Shown here piece after piece: positions 17,230-34,539 of a stretch of 34,539 bases of DNA. Within the stretch, counting starts at the first letter, position 1. Every line of letters starts with the position of its first letter. The position numbers and the translations under genes are program-made. Source of the DNA: Candidatus Thorarchaeota archaeon (GTDB lineage Archaea > Asgardarchaeota > Thorarchaeia > Thorarchaeales > Thorarchaeaceae); NCBI GenBank assembly GCA_013388835.1, contig JACAEL010000032.1:1-34539 (forward strand), written 5' to 3'. Below the pieces are notes generated by a model. That model worked only from the letters and a program-made list of their open reading frames with translations. It was not told the origin of the DNA and searched no databases.

Positions 17230-17276
17230 TGCGCGGGCCTCTCTGCATATAGAATAGTTTAGTGAGAAGCTGCAAT

Positions 17277-17918
17277 ATGGCCGAGAGCGCTCTGTCCATG
17301 CACTACGAGTTCTTCTCGTGGAAGGGTTTCATGGTGGGAGCTACTATGATTGCACTCCTGCTCATCGTGCAGTCGTGGCTGGGTTTTCCAGCAGTGTGGT
17401 CGCAGAGAGCGATTGACTATGTGCTGTTCATAGTCGTATCGGCCGTAGTCGTAGGCACTGCATCAGGAAGCGTGTTGGTCTATCTGATACCCCCTGACCA
17501 AGATGTCATCGGTGTCAGTGGCTTGGGGAGTGACGCAGGTGCTCAACATGTCTCGTTGGTGCTCGTCCTTCTTGGTCTTCTTCAGCCCATGATGACCGGG
17601 TTCGTCTACTTCTTCGAGTACTTCGGTAATGACCCTCTGATCGTTGTGTGGGTCGTTCTCAGCTTCGCCGCTCCAAGTGCCGGTCTTGCCGAAGCGATGT
17701 ATGATAGGCAGGCCGCAATTGCACAGGACCTGCGCGCGTACTTCTCACATCACGACAGACTCGACTTGGTGAGACTTGACTGGCTTCACGGACACGGACC
17801 TAGGAATGCAGTATATCGGATGGGCATGTTGGAAAGCGCTGCCAAGAAGGTCAAGTACTTGAAGGTCGTCGGTCACGAAATAGTTCGAGACAAGGATACT
17901 ATTCCTGTCACCCAGTAG
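17277..17918 (+). CDS. Four-helix membrane protein of unknown function
   Basis: This 213-aa protein (counted from ATG 17277; an in-frame GTG lies at 17262) has four hydrophobic helices (about residues 13-35, 42-68, 87-112 and 115-138) and a soluble C-terminal region of about 75 residues rich in charged residues (ESAAKKVKYLKVVGHEIVRD). No family or catalytic motif was recognised. It is divergent from the ABC export operon and converges on the zinc-finger gene, the two coding ends overlapping by 11 nt. Confidence 0.65.
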   Translation: MAESALSMHYEFFSWKGFMVGATMIALLLIVQSWLGFPAVWSQRAIDYVLFIVVSAVVVGTASGSVLVYLIPPDQDVIGVSGLGSDAGAQHVSLVLVLLGLLQPMMTGFVYFFEYFGNDPLIVVWVVLSFAAPSAGLAEAMYDRQAAIAQDLRAYFSHHDRLDLVRLDWLHGHGPRNAVYRMGMLESAAKKVKYLKVVGHEIVRDKDTIPVTQ

Positions 17919-18237
17919 GCTTTCCACTACTGTGCCTCTTCTTCATGTGGACGGTCAGACCCAGTTCAGTCCACGCTATCCATGCGCACTTCAGGCATGA
18001 GAACTTCTGACTGCCGAGCCCGAATCTGGGGGGTGCCTTCTCCTCAAGGTCGTAGACCGTACCGCCGTAGCCGCTCTGTTTCCTTGTGACCACCTTGAAG
18101 CGTTTCGTGAAACACTCCATGCAGATTCCGATACTTCGTCTCTGCTCACTGACGAAACTGTCCTCCAGTGTCTTAATGGGCCCTTCTGGCTCGATTTCCT
18201 TTCCACAGCTCTCACAGAGTTCGACGATACGCAGCAC
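17908..18237 (-). CDS. Small zinc-finger protein (CxxC pairs plus C2H2 finger)
   Basis: This 109-aa protein has two CxxC pairs in its N-terminal half (C8/C11 and C39/C42), which can form one zinc site. A classical C2H2 finger follows at the C-terminus: C81-x2-C84-x12-H97-x4-H102. Such small proteins are common in archaea and may bind DNA, RNA or protein; the role here is not evident. A minus-strand TATATG element lies about 70-80 nt upstream. The 190-nt gap upstream separates it from the GTPase-like gene on the same strand. Confidence 0.7.
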   Translation of the reverse strand: MLRIVELCESCGKEIEPEGPIKTLEDSFVSEQRRSIGICMECFTKRFKVVTRKQSGYGGTVYDLEEKAPPRFGLGSQKFSCLKCAWIAWTELGLTVHMKKRHSSGKPTG

Positions 18238-18426: not shown

Positions 18427-19830
18427 TCACTGCTTTTCCAGTGTGTATTGGACATGTAGTTCCGCGGCAGTCCGGAATGCAGTCACGACGCCTTCAGATG
18501 TGAGGCAGCTGGTCTCGATGAAGGCCACTGGGTGGAGCTTGCCTTGAGAGCCGAGCTTGGTTGCCAGGTACTCAGCATACTTGAATCCCTCGTCGCTGGA
18601 CACGGGCTGCGGACCTCCATCCTCGATTTCATCACGCCTGAGATCCTTCTTGTTCGCGGTTATCACAACCGGAGGTAGTCCCTTGAGCACAAGGGAGACC
18701 TCCTTCAGCCAGAAGTCAACGCTCTCGAAACTCCACCTGTCCGATGCGGAGTACACTATCATGACGACCTGAGCGTCCGAGTAGAACTCCTTTCTGGTGA
18801 TGCCTGATTTCGCTGCATCATCAAAGCACCAGACGTTCAGTTGAACCCGATAGTCATCAAGCTCAAACACATGCTGGTACACATAGGGGCGATTGTCCTC
18901 CTCCGAGGCCAGTTTCACAAGACCGGCCTTTTGCATGAGGGTGTGCTTGCCCACCGTGTCCTCTCCCAGAATGAGGGCCTTTGCTTTGACAAGCGGTTTC
19001 ACAACGTGTTCGGGTGTCTTCCTTGATGTCGTAGGCACTCCGGTCGGGCCTGTTTCGCCTTCAGACACCGTGACTGTTCTTGGTGCGGCAGATGACACCG
19101 AAGTGGTGCCTTGTGCCTGTTCTGGAATGACTTCGGGTGCCGCTGCATGGCTCTTTGCGGAGGCGACTATCTCTTCCTGTCCGTCAATCCTCAGGGCTGA
19201 CCGCTTATGTGGTTGCTCAGGACTTGTCAAGCTGTCTTGCGGTCCCGCGGCAAGAAACGAGTCACTGAGCTTCTCAACAGCAGAGAGTGCCTGTTCAATG
19301 TCGACAAGGTCTGTTCCCGTGAGCGACGGCGCCTCCACCTTGATGGGTTCGAGTTCAATTATCGACTGTCTCTTCTTGGCGCGCACCTCTGGTTCGGGTT
19401 CTGTCAGCGTGTGAGGTGCAGCAGATGTCACAGGTTGAGCCATTGATGCAGTCGACTCCTGTGGCACTGTTGTCAATCGCTCGGCAGCTCTGACTGACAC
19501 CTCTTGGACGGCCGGCGTTGGTGTTCTTGCGTCCTGTCCGGACGGCTCCTCGACAACCGCACTAGCCGTCGACGTCTCCTCAGTCTCTTGCACCTGTGAG
19601 CCTACGAGTATGACCCTCACTTGGGGGACACCAATTCGAATCAGCGAGTCTCTGATTATGCTGGGTGCAAGCATCTTGCCCTTTGTCTTGAAGTAGACCT
19701 CAAGGTCCCCGAGTACTTCTTCGAAGGAGCGATTCTTGATCTTGATCTTCTTCTCCACTCTGCCCTTGTCACGGACCTCCACATACCCTGGCAGCAGAGT
19801 GATACCAACTGTTGTTCCGGGGACTATCAA
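18427..19830 (-). CDS. Long protein ending in a degenerate Ras/Rab-like GTPase domain
   Basis: This 467-aa protein has three parts. Residues 1-90 form a compact basic domain of unknown type (GYVEVRDKGRVEKKIKIKNR). Residues about 95-280 are a low-complexity Ser/Thr/Pro/Glu linker, probably disordered. Residues 284-467 are a small-GTPase fold. G1 reads GEDTVGKHT (289-297), with His where Ser/Thr normally binds magnesium. G3 reads FDDAAK (336-341) where DTAGQ is expected, so the conserved Gly and catalytic Gln are absent. G4 NKKD (393-396) and G5 ETSC (about 439) are intact. It may bind nucleotide with little hydrolysis. The start is TTG 19830; GGAGAA lies upstream within a palindrome (19841-19852). 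It is transcribed away from the phosphoribosyltransferase gene. Confidence 0.8.
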   Translation of the reverse strand: MIVPGTTVGITLLPGYVEVRDKGRVEKKIKIKNRSFEEVLGDLEVYFKTKGKMLAPSIIRDSLIRIGVPQVRVILVGSQVQETEETSTASAVVEEPSGQDARTPTPAVQEVSVRAAERLTTVPQESTASMAQPVTSAAPHTLTEPEPEVRAKKRQSIIELEPIKVEAPSLTGTDLVDIEQALSAVEKLSDSFLAAGPQDSLTSPEQPHKRSALRIDGQEEIVASAKSHAAAPEVIPEQAQGTTSVSSAAPRTVTVSEGETGPTGVPTTSRKTPEHVVKPLVKAKALILGEDTVGKHTLMQKAGLVKLASEEDNRPYVYQHVFELDDYRVQLNVWCFDDAAKSGITRKEFYSDAQVVMIVYSASDRWSFESVDFWLKEVSLVLKGLPPVVITANKKDLRRDEIEDGGPQPVSSDEGFKYAEYLATKLGSQGKLHPVAFIETSCLTSEGVVTAFRTAAELHVQYTLEKQ

Positions 19831-19852: not shown

Positions 19853-20077
19853 ATTCCTCTTGCTCAGTCGTCGCTGGAGTTCTTAACAGTTTCGTAGCTC
19901 ATGCTGCTCTGCAGTGGTCTAGTAGTCGCCGAGAATCTAACACAATCGGTTTGCTGCATCACTGCCGCAGAGACTCGTTGACTTGTCAAATCAGCTTCTC
20001 AGGTCCTGTTGGTGGCTCATCGTTCATATCGTCACACAACGTTTCTGTTGGTCACTGTGAGGCGAATAGAAAGGATT

Positions 20078-20677
20078 ATGACCTACATGAACGGCTCACA
20101 AGCTGAGGTTAGGACCGTGACTGAAGTTGACTTTCGCGAGTATGTCGAGGTGATTCGAAACTGGCCACAGCCCGGCATGGCCGTCTGCGATATCAGCAGA
20201 CTCCTCGAACACCCAACCGTCTTCCATGAGGCTGTTGTCACACTTGCCCGACCCCTCGTTGAGCTCAAGCCGAACAAGGTGATTGGAATCGAGCAGCGGG
20301 GCCTTGCCTTGGGGAGTGCCATTGCCTACTTCCTGGGATGCGGGATTGTCCCTGCTCGTTCAATAGCATATCTGCCCGATGACTACAGTCGTCCGGTGGA
20401 GTTCCTGCCCGCCAGCAGGTTTGCTGACCGACGACTTGCGCTGGTCTCCGACTCGATTGATCCCGGCGATAGAGTGGCGATAGTTGACGATTGGCTCGTT
20501 CAGGGCACCTCAGTCCTTGCAGTTGCCAAGGTTGTTGAAAAGTTGGGCGCATCCGTCGTTGGTGTGGCGTGCGTCATAAACAATATGTCGGAGACAAGGA
20601 GAAAGATGCTGGGGCGTCCTGAGATACACTGTCTCATCAGGAACCTCGAAACGGATGCCCTGCATCCGCTCGACTGA
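20078..20677 (+). CDS. apt: Adenine phosphoribosyltransferase-like protein
   Basis: This 199-aa type I phosphoribosyltransferase is closest to adenine phosphoribosyltransferase (adenine + PRPP to AMP + PPi; purine salvage). The N-terminal hood motif NWPQPGMAVCDISRLLEHP (about residues 28-46) matches the APRT pattern FPxPGIxFxDITPLL. The PRPP loop is VAIVDDWLVQGTS (133-145). It keeps the paired acids but reads VQGTS where ATGGT is usual, and the flexible-loop region (PARSIAYLPDDYS) also differs from the KxGKLP consensus. Substrate preference may therefore be changed. The frame opens at 20009, but ATG 20078 gives the normal N-terminus; no strong ribosome site is visible. It converges on the acyl-CoA ligase gene, separated by a terminator. 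Confidence 0.8.
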   Translation: MTYMNGSQAEVRTVTEVDFREYVEVIRNWPQPGMAVCDISRLLEHPTVFHEAVVTLARPLVELKPNKVIGIEQRGLALGSAIAYFLGCGIVPARSIAYLPDDYSRPVEFLPASRFADRRLALVSDSIDPGDRVAIVDDWLVQGTSVLAVAKVVEKLGASVVGVACVINNMSETRRKMLGRPEIHCLIRNLETDALHPLD

Positions 20678-28861: not shown

Positions 28862-30115
28862 TCAGCTCTGTCTCATTCTCTCTATCTCTCGAATGCGTTT
28901 CTCCTTGGCCATCTCTGCATTCTTGATTCGCTTCATCTGTTCATCAACGCGCTTCAGTGCCTCGGCGACTTCCTTGTCCCTTCGGCTTCGTATTCTTCGA
29001 TAGTCCTTGTCCGCATCGCTCCACTCAGCCTTTGCTCGGCGCAGGTCTTCCTCAAGATTCTCGACCCGTATCCGCTTTGCCTCCGCTGCGGCCGAGTATC
29101 GCTCCATTTCCTTGTCAAGACTGGAGCGTATTCTTTCGAGTTCAGCCTCCAGCTGCCTGTGCTGGTCGGTGAAATGCGCTATGTCAGACTCTATCTCTCG
29201 TATCCTGCTGTCGTCAGAGTACTTGGACACAGTGGCCACTGAAGGGTACGGCACACCCACTGAGGGGGTTCGGGGTGTTGGCTGCTCGGTTCCTGTGGCA
29301 ACATAGTCCGTCAGAGATCGGCTGCTCGATGCACCCATGGGGGCTGTCTTGGGGATAATGTGGATAGCTGGTGCTTCTGCCAGTCCCTCCGATTTGCGGG
29401 ATGACAGGGATGGTTCAGGAGGTGTGTCTGCCACGAGTCTTGCCATCGTCGGACCACTCTGACCTGGCGGACTAACTGAGATGCCTGTTCCGCCATCGCT
29501 GTAGCTCGGTGTCGTGTGTTCTGGACCCGATGCCTTAATGGCCACAGCCTGCAAAGATGTTCTTGTGGACTCGGGCACGACAGGCTTCACGCCCACGGGT
29601 GTTGAAGGTGTCCTTGCTGGTTCGGACGCGACTGGTCTCACGCCCACGGGTGTTGAAGGTGTTCTCGCCGGCTCAGAAATGGCCAGTTGGGGCTCAGTGA
29701 CGACTCGTGGTTCTGGGACTGAAGCAGATCGCGCAGATACCGCAAGATCTCTGAGCTCGCTTGCCCTCAACATCCGCTGCTCAGGATCGGTCTTGTCTGC
29801 GATAGCAAATGCCTCACGAGCTTTCTCAAGCTCGGTCTTCTCTGTGTGCCGCTGACCAATCCTTAGACGGTCACGTGCAACTTGGCTCGGCCGAACCCAC
29901 TTATCGCCTGTCGTGACACTCAGCTTCTCGGGTGAGACTGCATCTCCAGATGTTCTCAGTGTCTCGACTGAGTCCGTCTTGGTTGTAATGCGGACACTGG
30001 CACTCGATGCGGGTGCCTCGGACACTGCCCCGGTCTTCAAGAGCGAAGCTCCACAGCGAATGCAGAACTTACGTGTGGGCTGGTTGGCCTTCCCGCATGA
30101 TACGCATGTTATCAA
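28862..30115 (-). CDS. Zinc-ribbon, disordered-linker and coiled-coil protein
   Basis: The protein starts with a zinc ribbon (CVSCG...FCIRCG, two CxxC pairs), continues through about 200 residues rich in Pro, Ser, Thr and Glu, and ends with a long charged coiled coil from about residue 310 (AHFTDQHRQLEAELERIRSS onward). The linker carries two near-identical copies of SEPARTPSTPVGV. The frame is open to GTG 30208 and has an ATG at 30187, but neither has a ribosome site and the extra residues do not look like protein. TTG 30115 puts the ribbon at the terminus and lies about 40 nt after a TATA-like CTTGTATGG. No enzyme domain is seen; a scaffold or adaptor role is inferred. It is divergent from the GTPase gene. 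Confidence 0.75.
   Translation of the reverse strand: MITCVSCGKANQPTRKFCIRCGASLLKTGAVSEAPASSASVRITTKTDSVETLRTSGDAVSPEKLSVTTGDKWVRPSQVARDRLRIGQRHTEKTELEKAREAFAIADKTDPEQRMLRASELRDLAVSARSASVPEPRVVTEPQLAISEPARTPSTPVGVRPVASEPARTPSTPVGVKPVVPESTRTSLQAVAIKASGPEHTTPSYSDGGTGISVSPPGQSGPTMARLVADTPPEPSLSSRKSEGLAEAPAIHIIPKTAPMGASSSRSLTDYVATGTEQPTPRTPSVGVPYPSVATVSKYSDDSRIREIESDIAHFTDQHRQLEAELERIRSSLDKEMERYSAAAEAKRIRVENLEEDLRRAKAEWSDADKDYRRIRSRRDKEVAEALKRVDEQMKRIKNAEMAKEKRIREIERMRQS
29588..29686 (-). repeat. Two tandem 51-nt repeats inside the coiled-coil protein gene
   Basis: The sequence CACGCCCACGGGTGTTGAAG starts at 29588 and again at 29639, a period of 51 nt, or 17 codons. The encoded repeat is SEPARTPSTPVGV plus four variable residues; a third, decayed copy (PESTRTSLQAV) follows in the protein. 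Confidence 0.8.
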
Positions 30116-30280
30116 TGTAAACTCATCCTGTGGAAGTTTTGATGTTCTACCATACCATACAAGACTGAAATGTGTTTGCTTCGGCATGTGTCGAACCGAT
30201 AGGAACACAGGAGGTGACGCGTTGAGGGGTTGTGCCGCCCTTGTGAGCCGTTTTGTTGTCAGATGCCATCCCGAATATCC

Positions 30281-30326: not shown

Positions 30327-30944
30327 TTGTCAGACGCTCAGAGTATCGTGCTTCAGGCCAAGAAGGCCAAGCGGATCATTCGTACTCTCCTAGTAGGCGA
30401 TGGGGGTGTCGGCAAGACCACACTGATCTATGCAATCAAAGAATTGTCAGCAGGGCACGCTACGGAGAGGTCAGAGGAAGGAAGCGAGAGGCCCGGCGAA
30501 GGAAGCATCAAACGTACGCCATTCATGGAGATTGCCACTTGGTGCTACGATGGCGTCACAGTTCAGTGCTTCGACCTAGCAGGCCAGAGGATAGAAGGAA
30601 CACATCCCCTAGACTTGGTGAGAGAACAGGTTGTCACTTTGATAGACGTTCTTATCATGGTGTTCTCTCTTGAGAGGTACGAGTCCTTCGAGCGGCTGTA
30701 TCAGTGGATTGAACTGCTGAGGACGGGTCCCCAAGTCTTGGATGACACTGTCAAGATGGTGTTGGTAGGAAACAAGAGCGACTGTGAGCGGTGTGTCTCT
30801 AGAGAGCTGATCGAGCCCATTGTGGGGGAGGGGCGGCCTTTCTTGAAGTACTTTGAGACCTGTGCTATCGATGACCAAGGTGTGTCAGCTCTGATGCAGG
30901 AGATAGCACGGTTGGGCGGCTGCATCTTGGATGGGATAGTATGA
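30327..30944 (+). CDS. Ras-superfamily small GTPase
   Basis: This 205-aa protein has all the nucleotide motifs: G1 GDGGVGKTT (24-32), G3 DLAGQ (83-87) with the catalytic Gln, G4 NKSD (149-152) and G5 ETCA (about 177-180). A probable switch I Thr is at residue 64. Between G1 and switch I is a charged insert of about 20 residues (TERSEEGSERPGEG). There is no C-terminal CAAX lipidation motif. It belongs to the Ras/Rab/Arf-like expansion known in Asgard archaea; an exact subfamily cannot be given. The TTG start is supported by GAGGTG 8 nt upstream. The next gene begins 28 nt after the stop on the same strand. Confidence 0.9.
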   Translation: MSDAQSIVLQAKKAKRIIRTLLVGDGGVGKTTLIYAIKELSAGHATERSEEGSERPGEGSIKRTPFMEIATWCYDGVTVQCFDLAGQRIEGTHPLDLVREQVVTLIDVLIMVFSLERYESFERLYQWIELLRTGPQVLDDTVKMVLVGNKSDCERCVSRELIEPIVGEGRPFLKYFETCAIDDQGVSALMQEIARLGGCILDGIV

Positions 30945-33316: not shown

Positions 33317-33337
33317 GGCAAATGTATGGTGGGATTC

Positions 33338-33625
33338 ATGGCAGTCAAGGAGTTCGTGCTTGACGGAAGCAATATGGTGTCCGTCGATGGTTTCTATGAT
33401 GAGGTACAACGAGTGCTGTGCCCCGACTTCAGCGGCTTTGGTCGGAATCTCGATGCATTGAATGATATCCTCAGAGGAGGATTCGGGACATTCGAATACG
33501 GCGATCAGATTCGGATTCGAATCGTGAATGTACACAAGATGAGGATGAACTTGGAAGCAAGCTTCTTCAGGCATGTGATGGAGGTACTGGAAGAGAGCGA
33601 GAATGTAGAGTTGTCACTGGAGTAG
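33338..33625 (+). CDS. Barstar-like RNase-inhibitor family protein
   Basis: This 95-aa protein matches barstar, the inhibitor of barnase-type ribonucleases. The key helix region reads FSGFGRNLDALNDILRGG (about residues 31-48), parallel to the YYGENLDALWDCL stretch of Bacillus barstar, whose acidic residues bind the RNase. An opening strand (KEFVLDG) and a central RIRIVNV strand also fit. No barnase-like ORF was seen in this window, so it is solitary here. The frame opens at ATG 33326, but ATG 33338 is preferred from the promoter position. A hairpin follows the stop directly. Confidence 0.8.
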   Translation: MAVKEFVLDGSNMVSVDGFYDEVQRVLCPDFSGFGRNLDALNDILRGGFGTFEYGDQIRIRIVNVHKMRMNLEASFFRHVMEVLEESENVELSLE

Positions 33626-33795: not shown

Positions 33796-34539
33796 ATGGC
33801 CATCGTTGAGTCAAGTGCATATCAGACGCTACTGAAGAACACTACAGGGACACACAAGTGGATAGTTGTAAAGGCAGTCGCTCTCCTACCTGACGAGTGG
33901 GGTGCGCTCTTCGTAAGGTACTCCACCGAGCTGACAGAAGGAGCGAAGCTCCCAGATGATGTGTTCAAGGACTTTCAGAATCACTGCTTCCATCCTCCCT
34001 CATGGGGTGGAGCTCCGAGTGCGTGCAAGAGATACTGGGAGAAGCTTGTCGACTCTCTCTCTAAGGGGAGCTGGTCTGAGGCAGTGAGTTTTGCAGGTGT
34101 GGTCTCGCACTACTACTCTGATGTGCTCAATCCGACACACACCGGACAGGTGCCCAGAGAGCAGATTGTACACAAGTTCATCGAGTGGGGCGTGGGGTCG
34201 AAACTGAAGACCTACGGTCCTCGCATGACGGTCCGTACACCACTCGAAGTCGATGACATAGAACAACTGGTGAAACAGAGTGCGACCTTATCCCATCAGT
34301 ACTACCGTATCTTCGTGGATGACTACGACATGGTGAGGGGTGAGCAGCACGGTTGGGGTGAGGGCTTCGATGAGGAGTCTCATCAGCTGAATATGTCTCT
34401 GCTCGAGCTGGCCATCAGAGGAACAGCAGGTCTGTGGATGAAGGCCATCCGGGCCGCAGGGGTTGAGCCGCCTCAAGTCAACATGACTGTAGTGTCGATT
34501 GTGCAAGCAATCAAGTCGCCTATTACGAGACTTGGCAAC
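33796..34539 (+). CDS. Zinc-dependent phospholipase C/S1-P1 nuclease-like protein, 5' part
   Basis: An ATG at 33796 opens a frame that runs 248 codons to the window end without a stop. The protein is helical and contains VSHYYSDVLNPTHTG (H105-x3-D109-x5-H115), resembling the H-x3-D...H zinc motif in zinc-dependent phospholipase C and S1/P1 nucleases. Other possible ligands are H63, H66 and H157 (LSHQYY). There is no signal peptide, unlike the secreted bacterial enzymes, so the substrate may be intracellular. Assignment rests on the motif and helical character only. A ribosome site is weak (GGCGAGA). The 170-nt upstream gap holds an inverted repeat. Confidence 0.6.
   Translation, partial: MAIVESSAYQTLLKNTTGTHKWIVVKAVALLPDEWGALFVRYSTELTEGAKLPDDVFKDFQNHCFHPPSWGGAPSACKRYWEKLVDSLSKGSWSEAVSFAGVVSHYYSDVLNPTHTGQVPREQIVHKFIEWGVGSKLKTYGPRMTVRTPLEVDDIEQLVKQSATLSHQYYRIFVDDYDMVRGEQHGWGEGFDEESHQLNMSLLELAIRGTAGLWMKAIRAAGVEPPQVNMTVVSIVQAIKSPITRLGN

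Follow-up and report, generated by a model that had tools for sequence, protein, structure and literature searches.

PG-A, as we call the protein considered here, is on the evidence of its sequence no one-off; it belongs to a family that is conserved, confined to one lineage, accompanied by a family of paralogues (PG-B) and equipped with an N-terminal domain of its own. The explanation that best accounts for the whole of the evidence is that it acts as a lineage-specific, non-switching pseudoGTPase adaptor that tethers its partners, and we hold this to be probable, with considerable reserve. The gene lies in the window, by which is meant the entire 34,539-nucleotide stretch of Thorarchaeal DNA that was analysed, and the coordinates and strand given for it in a preliminary description, made from the sequence alone, were correct. 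Its parts, by window position, are as follows.

18427-19830, reverse strand: PG-A, 467 amino acids, with an N-terminal domain, a disordered linker, a predicted pseudoGTPase domain and a TTG start codon
19843-19846, reverse strand: Shine-Dalgarno-like GGAG, 12 nt before the TTG start
19606-19830, reverse strand: N-terminal domain, residues 1-75 (PGTT...), confidently modelled with AlphaFold2, lineage-restricted
18994-19605, reverse strand: linker, residues 76-279, rich in A, E, S, T and P
19246-19311, reverse strand: conserved linker helix, residues 174-195 (DLVDIEQALSAVEKLSDSFLAA), with an AlphaFold2 helix at 178-189
18430-18993, reverse strand: predicted pseudoGTPase domain, residues 280-467 (Ras/Rab fold 280-462), from the Pfam Ras match and Foldseek
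18943-18966, reverse strand: G1 GEDTVGKH, residues 289-296, Lys16 kept and His at the Ser17 position
18814-18831, reverse strand: degenerate G3 W-C-F-D-D-A, residues 334-339, with Asp57, Gly60 and Gln61 lost
18709-18738, reverse strand: aromatic motif RWSFESVDFW, residues 365-374, at the start of alpha3, PG-specific
18643-18654, reverse strand: G4 NKKD, residues 393-396, intact
18505-18516, reverse strand: G5 ETSC, residues 439-442, Ser145 kept and Lys147 of the SAK motif replaced by Leu

A Pfam search of PG-A returned matches of the Ras-family type alone, the best of which (Ras, PF00071; residues 284-457; E 7e-15) lay above the cut-off. AlphaFold2, with 30 orthologues in the alignment, resolved three regions: an N-terminal part (pLDDT ~90 over residues 1-70), a linker with values mostly below 50, and a G domain (from about residue 280 to the end) mostly above 90. 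When the model of the G domain was searched with Foldseek, crystal structures of Thorarchaeota Rab ranked first (best 7eze; E 6.5e-13, probability 1.00), and membership of the Ras superfamily is thus indicated by both the profile match and the fold.

The TTG start is supported by the orthologues, which begin at the identical alignment column, many of them likewise with a GGAG some 10-12 nt upstream. Start codons at this conserved position, in the window (19830) and the 39 orthologues (L039, L044, L045, L050-L053, L059, L060 and L148 among them), were TTG (17), CTG (13), ATG (8) and GTG (1). For 10 of the 13 with CTG, the stretch from the in-frame upstream stop to the CTG contains no ATG, GTG or TTG, for which reason CUG initiation looks real.

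The state of the G domain was read from a residue table, numbered on H-Ras, that covered 39 PG-A proteins, 11 PG-B proteins and 29 Ras-family domains from the genome to which the window belongs. Among the 29 own-genome canonical GTPases, Ser/Thr17 is found in 29, Thr35, Asp57 and Gly60 in 28 each, and Gln61 in 25. In PG-A, position 17 is occupied by R, G, K, E, H, S, Q, A or L, with Ser in four, so that Ser/Thr17 is missing from 35 of 39; Thr occurs at position 35 in three of 39, within a loop that aligns poorly and in which Thr is not conserved; at position 57 Asp never occurs, its place being taken by Ser (33), Cys (3) or Leu (3); position 60 is scattered among many residues; and position 61 is Ala in every case, Gln being lost throughout. 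Phe28 and Lys147, which help to hold the base, are gone as well. PG-A therefore lacks the G1 GxxxxGK[S/T], switch I Thr35, G3 DxxG and Gln61 of a functional small GTPase, and it retains the G4 [N/T]KxD (39/39). Indeed, the P-loop Lys and the NKxD residues (Lys16, Asn116, Lys117 and Asp119) are invariant in 39/39, and Ser145 is present in every PG-A with sequence at that position. The preliminary description had rightly recorded the His in place of the G1 Ser/Thr. It had also reported a G3 without Gly and Gln, which is so as far as it goes; the list was incomplete, since the window's protein also has Cys for Asp57 (Ser in most orthologues), against W-D-x-A-G-Q at this site in canonical GTPases, and has no Thr35 in switch I. 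Its statement that G4 and G5 are intact holds for G4 and is half right for G5, in which Ser145 stands and Lys147 does not.

Taken alone, degenerate motifs of this kind could be read as a sequence error or a decaying pseudogene, and orthologues with normal G1 and G3 had been named in advance as the sign of such an error. A protein search among 59 relatives yielded about 30 PG-A orthologues, and the addition of further genomes brought the number tabulated to 39. Most of the named records are Candidatus Thorarchaeota MAGs, while two bear the label Lokiarchaeota and two just "archaeon"; some of these records are also among the numbered genomes, and counts from the two are accordingly not independent. 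All relatives are metagenome assemblies or numbered genomes, and the losses recur across separate assemblies. The orthologues carry the altered G1 and G3, their frames are intact, and dN/dS, computed for pairs of close relatives, lies at 0.05-0.15 in the N-terminal domain and the G domain alike (0.13-0.45 in the linker), values that place both folded domains under strong constraint. Since the same losses occur in 39 orthologues under purifying selection, they are neither chance nor error, and the probability left to the pseudogene reading is negligible. That selection keeps the altered state suggests that the protein serves as a constant platform to which other proteins bind, and not as a switch. 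A viral or phage origin was also ruled out, as no relatives were found in viral contigs or phage records, and a search of the literature, beyond whose reach most subscription papers lay, found no description of the PG-A/PG-B family.

PseudoGTPases are divided into those that bind no nucleotide (class i), those that bind it without catalysis (class ii) and those that are active but atypical (class iii). The third class, with residues that have migrated, would accord with the intact Lys16 and NKxD of PG-A and with the Ser/Thr that follows the lost Ser17 in 36 of 39 sequences. A Ser/Thr at position 18 is also present in 23 of the 29 canonical GTPases, however, and so offers no clear replacement; moreover, none of the 39 has Asp57 or Gln61, very few have Thr35, and many different residues occur at position 60. 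Such an enzyme is thus very unlikely. By the definition of PMC5593906, PG-A is, as judged from its residues, a pseudoGTPase of class i or ii, which bears out the designation first given to it.

PG-B has the same order of parts as PG-A, and a profile comparison of the two aligned the N-domain, the linker helix and the G domain (E 2e-70). A tree unites PG-A and PG-B in a single clade (100/100), which sits on a long branch next to four canonical Ras-like GTPases of the window's own genome (L004, L006, L008 and L010; join 90/76). PG-B was found in 12 genomes of five genera; the window's own genome has PG-A without PG-B, and MAG SMTZ1-45 carries both (L088 and L108, respectively). In 10 of 11 PG-B proteins the P-loop Lys has become Val or Ile, and position 57 is mostly Thr. 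The loss of the residues that handle Mg2+ and water, together with the base recognition and P-loop Lys that PG-A conserves and the absence of even this Lys from PG-B, fits a family in which switching would be gone and nucleotide would be at most structural. Given its unvarying P-loop Lys and NKxD, PG-A may yet hold nucleotide, and some slow chemistry is conceivable.

The usual order at PG-A loci is an acyl-CoA ligase, a divergent phosphoribosyltransferase, PG-A, a zinc-finger protein and, on the opposite strand, a protein with four transmembrane segments, and most loci then carry a LolD/MacB-type ABC transporter set. The nearest neighbours in the window are the following.

20009-20677, forward strand: phosphoribosyltransferase, divergently transcribed, PF00156 (4.4e-11), syntenic
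17908-18237, reverse strand: 109-aa zinc-finger protein (CxxC...CxxC and CxxC...HxxxxH), the next gene on the same strand as PG-A
17262-17918, forward strand: 218-aa protein of unknown family with about four predicted transmembrane segments, syntenic

The gene neighbourhood of PG-A indicates no clear process. The phosphoribosyltransferase is apt-like (purine-PRTase-like), below NCBIfam cut-offs, and its conserved adjacency to PG-A would suit a class ii nucleotide sensor, one that takes up GDP, GTP or an alarmone, does not hydrolyse it, tunes partner affinity by binding it and is perhaps linked to this neighbour. The invariant Lys16, Asn116, Lys117 and Asp119, and Ser145 wherever its position is present, point the same way, as does human LIC1, the G domain of which retains nucleotide with switching not demonstrated (PMC4359372). 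Weighing against a sensor are the lost base-holding Phe28 and Lys147 and also PG-B, which shares the architecture yet has lost the P-loop Lys, so that the family can probably do its general work without nucleotide. We judge a sensor unlikely.

The zinc-finger protein has invariant Cys and His residues in its relatives, and its gene is syntenic with PG-A; it was found in 38 of 227 Asgard genomes, all of them in the window's Thorarchaeal family and all with PG-A. As the two genes are adjacent, their co-occurrence is weak independent evidence of function and may reflect linkage alone. It was set aside as functional proof: the genomes from which the genes are missing are mostly incomplete or end at a contig edge (G013, G221), and the one near-complete genome without PG-A and the zinc-finger gene (G008) also lacks the neighbouring phosphoribosyltransferase, the whole locus being missing. 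A functional link between the two proteins is conceivable.

Turning to the docking face that the G domain may have, residues common to PG-A and PG-B and absent from the nearest canonical GTPases include Phe at Ras position 58, Trp 88, Ser 92 and Phe 95 (the last three being Trp366, Ser370 and Phe373 in the window's PG-A). These PG-specific invariant residues lie near switch II and alpha3, the region in which one would look for a permanent docking face. It is also conceivable that PG-A is a naturally occurring counterpart of Ras S17N, a trap that would sequester or tether the exchange factors of Thorarchaeal GTPases or other proteins that regulate them. In PG-A, Ser17 is lost while Lys16, NKxD and the Ras/Rab fold are kept, a combination that resembles dominant-negative mutants, the sister group consists of canonical Thorarchaeal GTPases, and loss of Ser17 and Asp57 would favour a nucleotide-free or GDP form and tight regulator binding. 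The regulator-facing residues, however, are not preserved; with switch I variable and switch II rebuilt, mimicry of the parent GTPase's surface is unlikely, and a regulator trap seems decidedly improbable.

The N-terminal domain, described at first as small and unknown, has no Pfam match in the window's PG-A, and when modelled alone (AlphaFold2, 32 sequences) it is predicted with confidence (mean pLDDT 94.7) as a beta-beta-beta-alpha-alpha fold. A search of this model against the PDB gave no convincing match (best E 0.59). Asgard archaea are known for multi-domain small GTPases, including fusions with longin or roadblock domains (PMC10933270), and PG-A resembles these in being multi-domain. 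Its N-domain matches neither family: no longin or roadblock match was obtained in Pfam among 32 N-domains, nor any fold match with E below 0.5, and both identities were ruled out for lack of profile and fold support. The early remark that the architecture is unusual for Asgard GTPases is upheld. Matches of a few N-domains to DUF1882 and Hda_lid were set aside as weak and inconsistent. In a profile search of 227 Asgard-phylum genomes, the domain was present in 42 of the 47 from the window's Thorarchaeal family and in none of the 180 others. A stand-alone 77-aa copy of the domain (loci L149:5886-6146, reverse strand; L151; L152) also exists in 13 genomes, the window's own among them, near genes that, as named by eye, are glycyl-tRNA synthetase-like and HMG-CoA reductase-like.

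The linker had been put at about 185 disordered residues. It is mostly disordered, as claimed, and measures some 204 residues in the window's PG-A (152-364 in orthologues), with a conserved predicted helix at 178-189. The motif DFxDIxEALxAVESLSDSFMAP is conserved, with A181, L182 and V185 invariant, and the rest of the linker is variable. A profile of the helix was tried on PG-B linkers, 11 of them real and 990 shuffled; the best three matches were real, and nine of the 11 real linkers were among the best 22. The recurrence of the helix in PG-B, above most shuffles, thus has moderate support.

Together, these features suggest how the adaptor would work. A Thorarchaeal Ras/Rab-like GTPase would have been fused to a small novel N-terminal domain via a long, acidic, disordered tether, and it has lost its magnesium and gamma-phosphate machinery (Ser17, Thr35, Asp57 and Gln61). 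Switching would have ceased in the G domain; held in one fixed conformation, it would either have an empty pocket or contain a guanine nucleotide in a structural role, kept in place by Lys16 and NKxD, and the new aromatics near switch II/alpha3 (Phe 58, Trp 88 and Phe 95, Ras positions) would present an unchanging surface for docking. A second partner would bind to, or dimerise with, the N-terminal domain, the conserved tether helix would serve as a short binding motif, and PG-A could thereby hold partners together at a flexible distance. A scaffold role can reasonably be inferred from these features, and the best reading is a class i/ii pseudoGTPase scaffold resembling the dynein light intermediate chain (LIC) by convergence.

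In LIC, a degenerate Ras-like domain docks via a conserved aromatic patch, and a disordered region contains a partner-binding helix; the fungal protein binds no nucleotide and human LIC1 prefers GDP (PMC4359372, PMC6336354). PG-A likewise joins a degenerate Ras-like G domain to a long disordered region with a short conserved helix. PG-B offers a further parallel, its Val/Ile and Thr corresponding to fungal LIC's replaced P-loop Lys (Gln60) and switch II Asp (Thr116) (PMC4359372). In LIC, however, the G domain has insertions and comes first, with the tail after it, whereas PG-A has a separate N-terminal domain and its G domain last. The DLIC Pfam profile scored below its cut-off against PG-A (E 0.0072; 15.7 bits versus 19.7), and the likeness would be one of design, by convergence. 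CENP-M and the pG1/pG2 domains of p190RhoGAP also combine a Ras-superfamily fold with lost G motifs and, where proven, a non-enzymatic structural role (PMC4080450, PMC5593906). Their partners and domain context are unrelated to those of PG-A, and CENP-M has no switch I region and is missing two of its P-loop glycines, whereas PG-A retains the P-loop and G4. In AAGAB, a eukaryotic AP2 assembly chaperone, a GTPase-like domain serves binding and is joined to a separate binding region (PMC12429027), a likeness of design. Thorarchaeota Rab (7EZB/7EZD/7EZE) and other Asgard Ras/Rab-like GTPases belong to the same superfamily, the former giving the best fold match; Thor-Rab binds Mg-nucleotide and hydrolyses GTP (PMC10933270) through residues that PG-A lacks.

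The pseudoGTPases with proven scaffold roles that were found described (CENP-M, LIC, p190RhoGAP and AAGAB) are all eukaryotic. An Asgard pseudoGTPase family under selection and with a new domain would mean that conversion of a GTPase to a fixed scaffold also took place in a prokaryotic lineage; Thorarchaeota belong to the Asgard archaea, which are kin to the ancestors from which complex cells arose. The question is open to direct test, as a Rab from MAG SMTZ1-45, a carrier of both PG-A and PG-B, has already been expressed and crystallised (PMC10933270). It is tempting to go further and to suggest an Asgard-born family of prokaryotic pseudoGTPase scaffolds, in which one Thorarchaeal Ras-like lineage gave rise by duplication to PG-A and PG-B, tethered to a domain of possibly new fold and perhaps organising membrane or surface machinery without switching; if true, small-GTPase scaffolds evolved outside eukaryotes as well. 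The idea of a membrane or surface organiser comes from the proximity of PG-B to an ESCRT-II/ESCRT-III/Vps4 cluster in one genus and from the pairing of PG-A with the zinc-finger gene, and this broader proposal is possible and rather doubtful.

With regard to PG-B loci, the gene is divergently paired with a ~210-aa leucine-rich-repeat (LRR) protein in genera g3, g6, g10 and g11, and in several genera a very large probable surface protein lies beyond the LRR gene (L106-L111, L113, L114, L150). In genus g6, PG-B lies a few kb from a cluster of ESCRT genes (EAP30/Vps22, Vps25, Vps4 and Snf7; loci L106-L108, L112 and L113), where Vps4 has a weak MIT match. Linkage to ESCRT as a family-wide feature was rejected, as it is confined to g6; PG-B and the ESCRT genes are 1.26 Mb apart in G020 and on different contigs in G019, G028 and G013.

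Within the window no RNA genes were found, and a scan of the locus for sigma-70 promoters and terminators, the models of which do not extend to archaeal promoters, gave no more than chance. A second small GTPase (30327-30944, forward strand) has a normal G1 and G3 and an unusual G5 (ETCAID), and is divergent from a zinc-ribbon/coiled-coil protein (28862-30208, reverse strand). Further along are a Barstar-family protein (33326-33625, forward strand; PF01337, 1.4e-10), for which no barnase partner was noticed in the window, and a match to zinc-dependent phospholipase C (33796-34539, forward strand; PF00882, 3.5e-6) in a protein cut by the window's end.
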